Shown piece by piece: positions 14,301-56,660 of a stretch of 64,000 nt of DNA; position 1 is the stretch's first letter; the number at the start of each line of letters is the position of its first letter. The DNA comes from Xanthostigma xanthostigma (Eukaryota; Arthropoda; Insecta; Raphidioptera; Raphidiidae). The position numbers and the translations under genes were made by a program. The DNA lies in assembly GCA_963575645.1 (NCBI GenBank), contig OY754475.1:7316001-7380000 (forward strand), written 5' to 3'. Below the pieces are notes generated by a model, which saw nothing but the letters and a program-made list of their open reading frames with translations, was not told the origin of the DNA and ran no database searches.

Positions 14301-14814
14301 GCAATGTTTGTGGATATCATTGTACAACACAGGTACGTAATGCGGCTGAGTTGGTTCGTAAAATAGATTTTCTGCAGTCGGCAAACCGAAATAATTTCGT
14401 ACTACGATAGTTCGCCTCACAGGTAGTGTGTTAACAATTATGTATTCTTTAAACGTGGTCAGTTGGCCCCATGGTGCTAAATCAGACTGATTCTGCACAT
14501 GGCAATCTCGTATTGAAAATTGTGTATTTTAACTTGTTGCATTTTTTTAACAGTTTTTATAGTATTTTTAAGAACACAGTTTATATTATTACTAGTCAGG
14601 AAAATATTGATTGAAACAGAATAGCGTTAAAAATATGGACAACTGTATTCAGTCTAATGTGTATTAAAAAGATTGTTGACAAAGGCCAGGAATGAATCAA
14701 GTTTGTATCGATGATATCGGTCGATACCCGAGCGTGGCAAAATATCCTAAAGTAATCGAAAGCAGAAGCGTTAAAATCTTTGCTTAAAATCTTTGATTAA
14801 CGTCTGATTGGAAC
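11352..14814. other. Intergenic, mostly featureless
   Basis: No convincing exon or RNA gene. AT-rich with short open frames only. The segment 14125-14225 (CTCCAACCTCGCTGCGG, then TGCGCAGTGGCTC) is a diverged partial copy of the foldback element at 10520-10739. Confidence 0.5.
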
Positions 14815-15040
14815 TCTTCAATAAATAAAATTATCGACCAATTTTTCAGACAATATATTAACAAAAAATATCAATAATACATTAAACAATTAACGTTTCG
14901 ATCCGGATTTGGATCTTCTTCAGAACGGATCTAAAAATATAAAAATAATTAATAATTAGTTAATCGTTTAATGTATTATTGATATTTTTTGTTAATATAT
15001 TGTCTGAAAAATTGGTCGATAATTTTATTTATTGAAGAAG
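14815..15040. repeat. Foldback element with hammerhead-like centre, copy 1
   Basis: Arms of about 80 bp: TCTTCAATAAATAAAATTATCGACC at the left is matched by its complement ending near 15040. The centre on the minus strand (14923-14892) reads CTGAAGA, A, GATCC, AAATCC, GGATC, GAAACGTT. It shares arms and flanking sequence (a CTTTGATTAACGTCTGA block) with the element at 46583-46785, so the two are one family. Confidence 0.8.
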
Positions 15041-17442
15041 CGTTAAAAATTACGCACGAACGGTTTTTGGAAATCGTGGAAGTTTTCTGTTTCAGTCAAT
15101 GATATTTCAGTTTTTTATCACCGCGTATTTAAATGATCTCACTGAGTTTTTTGAAAATGTAAATTCAAAAACGTCACAGTGGAAATATATTGTTACGAAG
15201 CTTTTTTTAAAAATTGCTGTTAAAAGTTACACCTTTTGTTTTGTTAAGGTGTTGGTGAAAGCTTTCGCAATAAATTGTTGTATTTTTGTTTTGAAAATAT
15301 AAATTTTTATAACTAATATTGATAAATGCATGAACAGTATTGATTTCATTACGAGTGACTATTAAAATATAATAAAGGATTTTAATCTTGTAAAAATATT
15401 TACGATTGTGCTAAATTCTATTTTCTATTTGTTGCAAAAAAAGAATTGTTTCGATAAAAGGTATAAAAAAAATTATATGACGCTAGATTTGTATTCGTGA
15501 TTTTTTGCACCAATTTAAAATTGTTATGCCTATAGTTTTCCAGTACAATATGAATTGAAATCCGTGTTTGAATTTCATATTATATAAATTTTTAAAAGTT
15601 TTACAACAATAAATAGTTCAGATTTTGTAATTTGTTTATGGTTACGGCGTTAAGTTATGTAATCAATGTGCTCAGACATTCGGAACCGACGGATTGGCTG
15701 TGTATGTGTCCGAACGCATTCCAATTAATTATGTTCTCTCGTGGTACATCAAAGAAAGTTTTGTTTTAAACCCGAATGACACACTCGACGTGAGCGGCTT
15801 TAACATACGTCTCCAGATTCCTTCCAGCTTCATACACCGGCGTTGGTTTGCTTTGAAACCAATATCTGTACGCGTCTTTATACTTGTATGGAGACTTTAG
15901 AATATGATTTTCAAATCTAGACAAACACAGTCATCCGTTTATAGTTCGTAGCCTATTTAGAAGAAAAAATATTGTTAAAAAGAGCTATGTTTAATTGAGT
16001 TGAACGATATAAAGGTTCCTTCAACTTAAGTAGGAATATTGAAGATTACATTATTACAAAATCTGGTCTATTCCTAACGTTATACATAAATTTGTTGTGT
16101 GGGCCAAAAAACTCATATTATAAACTTTGAAATTATGTATTTGCTATTTATTCCCAGTTAAATAAAGTTATTGAACACATTTGATGACTTTTTTGTTTGG
16201 TAGTGAAAGGGTTAAATATAAAAATCAGTACAGTGTGTCTTTTTGTTAATTTATTCAGAGATCATATACGTATTTGATGTCTTTGTTTCGTACGTCAATC
16301 ATATGAAGCAGTTGAATGATTTGATACAAAATAACGTAAGCAAACATTGTAGTGTTGCATCATTGTTTAGCTTACGAATTATGTATAAATGTTTCTTTTT
16401 CTAAATAAGAATTTCATAGTTTTATCACAAACGTCGCTGCAGTAATAGAGCGGCCACGTAAGTTGGACGAGTGTCATCAATTGAAATTTCAAGGAGTTTT
16501 CTAGTGAAAACTCGTAAAAATGTTCACAGATTTAAGTAAAAATGAATTGTGATAAGCAGTTATAGTGTCTGTCGTGTTAATATAATTATTAGCATCTGGT
16601 ATGTAGTATTTTCGTTTGTAAATGCTTGACTTCTTCACCTTAATTTATATTAATTTTAGGGTTAAGAAATATTCCTTTTTTTAAAGTACCGTGTTCCTCA
16701 ACATGATAAGCAATTTTTTAATTGCACGCCAATTAATATAATCATTTCTTTATTTTATTGTGATATATATCGCGTGGTTGATTAGATTGATTTCTTATTG
16801 ATACCAAAAAGACATTCCTGTAATTAGCATTTCTTGGAATGCTTGCAATTTTATTAAAATGCTAATTACGCTGTTATTGTATTTTTGCGAAATACATTAA
16901 TCTTGCCGTTTTAGCAAAGCTGGCGTATTTAAAATGCATGTGCAATTTGACTGTTTTTTTGAAATTTTATTTCAGTAATTATGATATTGATCTTTAAAAC
17001 TTCTCTTTCTGGATATTAGTATCATTTCAATTTTGAAAACGTATTTCAGGATATATATTAGTTAGTTAACAATTGGGTATATCAATAATTCGCTAATGAA
17101 TATGATGTTTAAGTTGTATGTGTCATTTTCATAGGGGTTGGGCGATGTTTATCATTGATGGGTCGGGTTTTATGGGGTTTTTTATCAAGCTACTTTCTCG
17201 AATTTATTATATCGTGTTTGACAGATCGTTTTCAAATATGATGATTATGTACACTTTCTCTGCAGTTTAGCCTTCGTACTAGTTTCGTTATTAAAAGTAG
17301 GTCAAACTCTATTTTTGAGGTTAGGGTTACTGCTCCACCTAGTTCGAGGTCTAGTGCAGGCTATTATAAGTACCAATTATCTCATAATTTATTCACGCCG
17401 TTAATTTCTGTATCGTGCTCACGAAATGTGTATTTTTTTCAG
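15041..17442. other. Intergenic / upstream of Sec24
   Basis: No recognisable coding exon. It must contain the promoter and any first non-coding exon of the Sec24 gene, since an acceptor lies at 17441-17442. A 68-codon open frame near 15694-15900 matches nothing I recognise. Confidence 0.45.
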
Positions 17443-46529: not shown

Positions 46530-46582
46530 CTATAGGCTATGCTTTGTTTCACTATTTTATCGCAAAGCTTATTAATTTAAAA

Positions 46583-46785
46583 TAAATAAAATTGTCGACC
46601 AATTTTTCTCAGACCATATATTATATTGATAAAAAATAAAAATAAAAATCAAATATAACGCAAGATGAAGAAGATCCAAATCCGGATCGAAACGTCATCT
46701 TGTGTTATATTGATTTGTATTTTTATTTTTTGTCAATATATGGTCTGAGAAAAATTAGTCGACAATTTTATTTATTTGAAGAGGT
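46583..46785. repeat. Foldback element with hammerhead-like centre, copy 3
   Basis: Same family as 14815-15040. The centre on the plus strand (46665-46696) reads ATGAAGA, A, GATCC, AAATCC, GGATC, GAAACGTC. The arms CAAGAT/ATCTTG continue directly as the outer stem. The expected first C of CTGA is an A here. Confidence 0.8.
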
Positions 46786-47194
46786 CTATTCAGACGTTAA
46801 TCAAAGATTTGAGTCTTATTAATTTAATTTAATTAATTTTTCGGCATATACTTCTATACAAATACCTGTATATAAAATCGTAACGTGTTGTCAAGTCGGA
46901 GTAGTATTCCCTCTTCTCCCGCGCCTGTGCTCTATAAGTTTAACGGTACATATAAGTCGTGAAACAGCCAGTTTCAAGTGATTCGTCTTATGACTTCACA
47001 TGGCGCGAAGTCTACAAGTGCTCCTGTAGCCGGAGACTTTTTGACTTTCATGAATAATAAAACATGTGCGGTAGTTTCAGACTATATCTCATTTTGCTCT
47101 CATAACAGGGAGCTGCTGTTCCCGGACAACGTTGGGTAAATACGACTGTATTCCATTACAAAAGTCCACAACAGCCTAACGTGTCTATCTTTGA

Positions 47195-54999: not shown

Positions 55000-56660
55000 T
55001 TTATTTTGTTTTATTTTATTCCACTTGATATTAATTATATATTATATTATGTATAGTTCTTAATTTTTTTTATTTTTGCAAACTTAAAAAAAATATTTTT
55101 TCAATTTTTAATTATTTATTTCTTTAAATTTTTAAATCTTTTTAAATTTATTAAAAATATTTTTTAATTGTTATTTTTTTATCATACAGTGGAAAACTTG
55201 CGGGATGTGCACTTTTGGTTTTGCCAACTATTTTAATATTTTTTCCAATTTAATTAGGAGACTTTTAATAAATAAAAAAAAATTATTAAACCTTAGCACT
55301 TTTCGATTATGGACGTTTATTCTTGACAATTTTAACTGAATTTCCAACTTTTTAATAATTTAATTTTAATTTTTATTACTTCTAATTTCTTTTATTAATC
55401 ATTTACTGCAAAAAATATGTAAAATACAGATATTTACATAAATTTATTATATCTAACCTATAACATTGTAGAAAAAATTCAAAAGTTAGTCCATTAAGTA
55501 AAATACTGAAATAATTAATTAATATTAAAAAAAATGTTTATTTATGCCTTTATGACAATAATTTATTGGTATCATCGACTTATAACCTTTTGTAAAAATT
55601 TATTATGGAAAAGTTCCCATTTAGAATTCGACTTACTTTTGATCTGGACTGTAACGCATCAACCTCCTTAAAATATTCGTAACTTCTGTTGGTGCGTGTA
55701 TAACGTTGTGCTTTACCTGAATTTTTCACTTCACCTTATGACTGAAGGGCTCTTCTTTTTGTTGTGCCTTCGAGCTCGTTTCTTCAAGGCACGTTCAAAT
55801 ACCGATATTCTGTTGTTTTATTGTACGATGTACTCTACTTGATTGCTTAGCTGCAATTTCAATAAAGTCGTATTTCAAACAGACCAATGCGCAGTAGCAG
55901 AAAGCGTTGTCAGAAAATCTGATTTGACAGTGTGACCTTATGAAAAATTTATATGAATTTATAGAGAAAAAAGATTTTGAAAATGTAAAAAAAACATGTT
56001 GCCATTTGAAATAAAAAATGCATGTACACTTGCGGTTGAGTTTAAAGTACAAAAAACTATACGTCATCTGTTTTTGATAGTAAGACTCGAGTTGAACAAA
56101 TATTTCAACAGTTTTCTACACTTATTCATTGTTACCACTTTTGGTGGTGAACACACTGTATAACTGACATCGTGATCCTATTATTAGATTTTGTTCTTAT
56201 GGGAATATTTGTAACGTATTTCATTTTTTTTTTTTGCAGATTGCTGTGTCGGCAGTTTGCTGATTGCAGTAAAATTGGTGAGTAAAAATTATTATTACAT
56301 TTGTGCGTAGAACTATTTAACAAAAAAATTTCGAGGTAGCAAACGTTTTTACTGCATCATTCTTCTAGAATCTAGATCGTATGGTACAAATTATCTAATT
56401 TGAATTTTCTTGCGTGATCAAAGATGTATTGAACTAGCAAAATTAAACCTTTCAAAGGGAATTATCGATGAAACGTTTTTGAGAGATTTCATCAGATATT
56501 GTTTTGTTTCCTCGAAGGTAGATTTCACATTATATTTTCGTTTGATTGTGAATTTAATTACATTTAGGTACTGCATAGAAGCAAACATCGGAATTATACG
56601 TTCAAAGGTATTAACTTTATGAATTTTATATTCACTGTCATGTTGCTGATAGATTATTTT
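55000..56660. other. AT-rich spacer
   Basis: Contains the T-rich block shared with 38860-38940. No gene found. Confidence 0.4.

Follow-up and report, generated by a model that had tools for sequence, protein, structure and literature searches.

The window analysed here, a stretch of 64,000 nucleotides from Xanthostigma xanthostigma (contig OY754475.1, positions 7,316,001 to 7,380,000), holds within 46568-46827 two half-copies of one element that meet head to head. The palindrome that an earlier note had placed at 46583-46785 is real, and its sequence and coordinates match the description given there. The predicted RNA fold of this range has an energy of -100.4 kcal/mol, compared with -29.7 kcal/mol (sd 3.5) in 200 shuffles, none of which equalled it (z -20.25). 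Complementarity is 96% between 46577-46622 and 46735-46780 and 94% between 46622-46652 and 46710-46740. The range is too short, as the right side reaches approximately 46814 through an unmirrored tail of about 33 bp.

The left half-copy (46581-46668, minus strand) is an inverted, tail-less pLTR arm of a Penelope-like retrotransposon (PLE), with 85% identity to positions 700-792 of the reference half-copy. The right half-copy (46666-46814, plus strand) comprises an arm and the tail, with 93% identity to reference positions 671-824. The left half ends at the join, where a TGA is common to both halves. Lying across this hinge is the remnant of a hammerhead-like motif (46665-46696, plus strand), whose intact form in relatives is CTGAAGAAGATCC...GAAACGTC. 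The tail (46781-46814, plus strand, start approximate) is found at the right end only (pattern P- / P+ T+ at L001), and its equivalent in a diverged relative, L108, sits where the open frame starts. The whole is flanked by a perfect 13-bp target-site duplication (TSD), CTTATTAATTTAA, at 46568-46580 and 46815-46827.

A second twin copy of the same PLE was located by blast at 14764-15048 (minus strand), and its TSD, tail and core were read by eye. The 13-bp TSD AGAAGCGTTAAAA occupies 14764-14776 and 15036-15048, the tail is present at the left end only, and the core is intact with GTT (14892-14923, minus strand). Additionally, a 73-bp piece at 55094-55164 (minus strand) resembles the PLE coding region (73% identity, E 7e-6). 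Pfam matches elsewhere in the window are to BTB, armadillo and stathmin.

Penelope-like identity and copy number

The intact hinge form, CTGAAGAAGATCCAAATCCGGATCGAAACGTC, opens with the canonical CUGANGA. With up to 3 mismatches this core pattern matched the genome (623 Mb, 28 contigs) 5,924 + 6,020 times, 11,944 matches in all, while its reversed control gave 0 genome matches. A first DNA search of the same genome had returned at least 94 matches, with 40 of 1,013 candidates scored, and a protein search for the family returned at least 112. The 100 exact cores listed, which lie on contig C1, include 12 neighbouring pairs less than 5 kb apart, every one of them head to head, with spacings of 62-4,733 bases.

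The wider head-to-head pairs L081, L082 and L086 enclose coding sequence and have in common a reverse transcriptase (RT)/GIY-YIG region that is 98-100% identical at the DNA level. The L086 frame of 367 codons shows 33% identity, across 333 residues that take in the GIY-YIG motif, to the frame of L074, in which RVT_1 and GIY-YIG both score above the Pfam cut-off; for L086 itself RVT_1 scored 25.7 bits, just below the cut-off of 29.6, and GIY-YIG was not called. In L108, whose arm region is 75-79% identical to the reference and whose pLTRs are direct, the order is arm, tail, an 835-codon open frame (stop to stop), arm and tail. This frame opens at the tail (SDVNQRFE...), has its first Met soon after it, and is homologous to the L074 frame, so that an RT plus GIY-YIG frame is joined to the same arm, as in a PLE. 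In L107, an 822-codon frame is followed by arm and tail, and on the 5' side L107 is joined head to head with an inverted copy of that coding region. Pfam assigned no family to the long L107 and L108 frames, and a PDB sequence search with the long frames found nothing. Based on these sequence relationships, the window element is almost certainly one insertion of a dispersed PLE.

Thirty GIY-YIG loci (L043-L072) were examined as possible partners, and few had an arm or tail nearby. PLE pieces or very short twin stubs were also seen in five of eight 10-kb stretches, three of the eight having been chosen for such matches (L073 5437-5508, L074 6370-6587, L075 3049-3367, L078 1973-2092 and L080 752-893). 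Stubs lacking a core probably add many copies beyond the 11,944 core matches. Two copies carry other elements. A transposase-like frame matching DDE_Tnp_1_7 (Pfam 26.5 bits), presumably of the piggyBac type, is nested in the right half of the wide PLE copy L086 (2548-3288, minus strand). The right arm of the twin at L096 (contig C1, 5297465-5298497) is apparently broken by another palindromic repeat, possibly a MITE, with an TTATTTATT-like end.

The hammerhead-like motif and the window hinge

The hinge of the window copy reads CAAGATGAAGA-A-GATCC-AAATCC-GGATC-GAAA-C-GTC on the plus strand, with helix II formed by GATCC (46673-46677) and GGATC (46684-46688), GAAA at 46689-46692 and GTC at 46694-46696. 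The earlier note had remarked that the first C of the canonical core is A here and that an extra base precedes helix II. Both observations hold: position 3 is A, and one additional A is present. The origin of the A at position 3 can be read from an intact relative, L041, with ...CAAGATGACGTTTCGAT... in its inverted half and ...ATTTCTGAAGAAGATCC... in its direct half. In the window copy the halves are fused at the common TGA to give CAAGATGAAGAAGATCC (CAAGA/TGA/AGAAG). Position 3 is A because the neighbouring base belongs to the other half, past the TGA join. Relatives of the window copy keep CUGAAGA with C3 intact. On this sequence comparison the C-to-A change is a junction artefact and no ribozyme variant. 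The same hinge with at most 1 mismatch occurs at 3 places in the genome (the window, L002 and L003), against 11,944 cores; 37 additional matches at 2-3 mismatches could include further cases.

A canonical type I hammerhead core includes C3, which is A in the window copy, and a C3G substitution abolishes activity of the hammerhead of an anole PLE (PMC11167929). Furthermore, the minimum-energy fold of 46656-46705 closes the drawn core, with A46665-U46666-G46667-A46668 paired to U46698-A46697-C46696-U46695, so that in GUC the C is paired to G5 and the U to A6. Since C3 is replaced and the predicted fold pairs G5 and A6 into the GUC, we consider it very unlikely that the window copy acts as a ribozyme.

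The motif is better preserved in the family at large. An unfiltered pattern (CTGANGA, 6-24 bases, GAAAC) gave 8 matches in the 30 GIY-YIG loci. Owing to the overlap of L052 and L054 these represent 6 distinct places. All 8 fold a helix II of 4-5 pairs after a single spacer base, and none did in 20 Markov controls. The extra base is thus shared by all 6 distinct helix II-forming motifs next to GIY-YIG genes in these loci. The sequence of helix II varies, being GTTGT/ACAAC, GCCT/AGGC, GCTA/TAGC and GGCCA/TGGCC at other PLE loci and GATCC/GGATC in the window's. In an alignment of cores from 5 loci the L043 spacer is out of register; GUH is absent at L053, and an unfiltered match at L080 does not form helix II. 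By eye, the helix I pairs adjoining the core number 3-5 in L043, L049, L050 and L052, 3 in L108 and 1 in the window's subfamily. In another PLE family, at L052/L054 (contig C5, about 12.171 Mb), two hammerhead-like motifs flank the element head to head, and the head-to-head arrangement therefore extends beyond the window's family.

Hammerheads of PLEs are described in two reviews as minimal motifs lacking helix III that may work as dimers (PMC6155905, PMC7761336). The family motif, the window copy excepted, looks like such a hammerhead in its sequence: it has CUGANGA, a pairing helix II of changing sequence, GAAAC-GUH, a location in the pLTR and no room for a helix III hairpin in GAAACGUC. The canonical set of helices I, II and III is not formed, and helix III would be possible only between two motifs, because GAAACGU contains the self-complementary ACGU. 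Compared with the small PLE hammerheads of these reviews, the one base between A9 and helix II is a possible difference; the window's subfamily retains (by eye) one adjacent helix I pair, and the window copy lacks C3.

The earlier note had proposed an Rfam search as a check. At gathering scores the whole window gave 0 matches, and up to E = 10 the scan of 46540-46840 and 7 relative loci (L012, L013, L014, L018, L022, L039 and L041) returned sub-threshold microRNA, CRISPR-repeat, snoRNA and similar models but no hammerhead. For Rfam's models this is the outcome that the note had named as speaking against its reading. As the models overlook similar motifs in the 7 scanned relatives as well, the null result is nevertheless compatible with hammerhead ancestry. 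Thus the note was right that the hinge bears a hammerhead-like motif and that PLEs are the proper neighbourhood for it; its foldback DNA element with a ribozyme for a hinge did not stand.

Target-site duplications, tails and joins of twin copies

Of 44 twin copies, 31 reached a TSD score of at least 10 (median 13, some scores taking in a few element bases), as opposed to 13 of 853 re-paired flanks of different copies; 13 of the 44 fell below it. In a second batch the corresponding figures were 12 of 13 and 11 of 156. Copies L005 and L008 were left out of the counts as duplicates of L002 and L003.

Tails were scored in a consecutive sample, places 1-45 of the exact-core list taken in order (41 loci: L087-L106, L109-L128 and L081), which avoids selection by likeness to the window. 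All 27 twins with both outer ends readable carry a tail on exactly one end, the arrangement of a pLTR with a 30-40 bp tail on one copy that is expected of a PLE. The other 14 loci were unscored, being single halves, nested copies or copies with one end beyond the stretch (L088, L089, L095, L100, L101, L103, L104, L113, L114, L116, L122, L123, L126 and L128). One of the 27, L121, has an extra tail-like fragment just outside (score 17, threshold 16). Among 40 loci selected by similarity, and hence biased towards the tail, 25 have one tail and L040 has no tail; L004 is nested, and a single end can be seen in another 13 (L009, L011, L012, L018, L023, L024, L027, L030, L032, L033, L034, L036 and L042). 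The tail-less ends of L014 and L020 are weak matches, with scores of 15 and 17 where shuffles reached 15 at most. The pairs picked for spacing include four with one tail each (L082, L083, L084 and L086) and one, L085, apparently with tails at both ends about 5 kb apart. Of the single halves, L101 has a tail and L100 lacks one; a TSD was recognised by eye in both.

The joins vary from copy to copy. By alignment ends, the half-lengths of 42 copies combine into 39 different pairs (L020 and L084, 2 of the 44, gave none; the values of 668-669 for L081, L082 and L086 are the reference edge), and in most copies the hinge lies elsewhere than in the window copy, the motif occurring once per half in longer copies. 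At L007 and L019 the join falls in the self-complementary helix II. Arm identity has a median of 0.933 within a copy and 0.854 between copies (32 copies), the own partner arm being best or tied in 16 of 32, with L025 and L093 as exceptions to this likeness.

Proposed route of insertion

Very probably, the window element arose when a PLE inserted as a very short head-to-head twin. The RNA of this PLE would bear a small hammerhead-like motif, lacking helix III, slightly upstream of the frame. We infer both-strand priming, two start sites in X. xanthostigma and an order of steps as follows. The PLE protein, with its reverse transcriptase and GIY-YIG nuclease, would cut the two strands of an AT-rich target at positions about 13 bp from each other, and each cut strand would prime a cDNA on the PLE RNA near the start of the frame. 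If one cDNA begins at a proximal site and its partner at a distal one lying about 33 nt beyond, a single tail results. Both cDNAs would run back through the hammerhead motif to unequal lengths, and their ends would be joined at a few matching bases by chance microhomology. In the window copy synthesis of one cDNA would have ended within the arm and that of the other within the motif, with the TGA joining the two, so that the hinge of the hairpin happens to be a remnant of the motif.

The principal alternative is that the inverted half of a PLE insertion arises by self-priming, in which a single cDNA, or else an antisense transcript, folds back so that its own end primes the copying. For rotifer PLEs whose inverted junctions bear palindromes such an origin has been proposed (PMC3846280), and it agrees with the likeness of arms within a copy and with joins such as those of L007 and L019 at self-complementary points. 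A strand copied back on itself should, however, give equal termini, and the one-tail rule (27 of 27) therefore favours priming on two target strands from two RNA start sites. We regard self-priming as improbable, if still the strongest of the competing explanations, and two-strand, two-site priming as likely. Against the latter stand the tail-less twin L040, the two apparent tails of L085 and the 13 of 44 copies whose TSD score is below 10. Additionally, the RT start of the anole PLE did not differ in vitro between the top and the bottom strand (PMC11167929), which counts against a simple strand rule.

Three further explanations seem to us scarcely credible. The long near-perfect inverted repeat with a central motif had suggested to the earlier note a foldback or MITE-like DNA transposon hinged by a hammerhead ribozyme. 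The symmetric inverted ends and uniform structure of such a transposon were not found: the ends are asymmetric with one tail, the joins are copy-specific and copies grade into RT/GIY-YIG coding sequence, while at the hinge C3 is lost, the fold pairs through the core and Rfam reports no hammerhead. A palindromic stub with the window hinge, copied as its own unit by PLE enzymes, could explain the three places with that hinge at no more than 1 mismatch, but these copies have three arm subtypes and three TSDs, so that the hinge more likely formed separately at the TGA than spread as a unit. A non-autonomous animal retrozyme, of the class of small repeats with type I hammerheads and circular RNAs, would likewise be short and non-coding with a hammerhead-like motif, and such elements are regarded as mobilised by PLEs (PMC7229834). 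The same source describes them as direct tandem repeats (PMC7229834), whereas the listed exact-core pairs within 5 kb are inverted in 12 of 12 cases, and copies of this family continue into PLE coding sequence.

Two-site, two-strand priming of a PLE has a close parallel in PAc, the Poseidon PLE of Anolis carolinensis, whose protein cuts and extends both strands and begins reverse transcription at two internal sites that bound the tail; its hammerhead mutants still insert (PMC11167929). The present family resembles PAc in a hammerhead-like motif near the frame start and in AT-rich targets and, on the proposed route, would also do so in a tail equal to the RT-start spacing and in two-strand cutting and extension (PMC11167929). 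It differs in that the PAc frame starts within the hammerhead, whereas the first Met of the L108 frame follows the tail, and in that PAc lies in tandem repeats, whereas the copies sampled here are mostly head to head (PMC11167929). The main text on PAc does not report end pairs of single insertions (PMC11167929). Similarly, the Penelope elements of Adineta vaga have head-to-head inverted pLTRs, TSDs and joins at microhomology or palindromes, with an optional 31-bp tail on one inverted pLTR and TSDs of 8-10 bp (PMC3846280). They are of low copy number, whereas there are thousands of copies here; their authors favour self-priming, and the paper does not mention a hammerhead (PMC3846280).

Inverted pLTRs, a tail restricted to one pLTR and minimal hammerheads are thus already known from PLEs. 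The twin arrangement also recalls LINE-1 twin priming, in which two cDNAs of opposite orientation are joined in one TSD-flanked insertion, the 5' part being inverted and the start region not duplicated. In contrast, both halves here cover the same RNA region. Among the open-licence literature matches listed, no title was found on counting tails per insertion.

The window finding is ordinary within its family, an apparent ribozyme-hinged foldback that becomes an explainable insertion product, and it serves as a warning that palindromes left by twin insertions can be mistaken for ribozyme folds. What deserves a specialist's attention is the one-tail rule, which separates two published ideas, self-priming and priming on both strands. 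The family is a large natural data set on PLE integration in which this rule is testable at scale, given the roughly 12,000 core matches of a single genome. Whether every twin PLE insertion follows a regular cycle of two RT starts, one per strand, with self-priming excluded as the main route, we put at somewhat short of an even chance. If true, such a cycle would explain the head-to-head pLTRs, the single tail and the TSD of about 13 bp together. Retention of the motif in an abundant family though helix I is nearly gone would then mean that cleavage is not needed for insertion.
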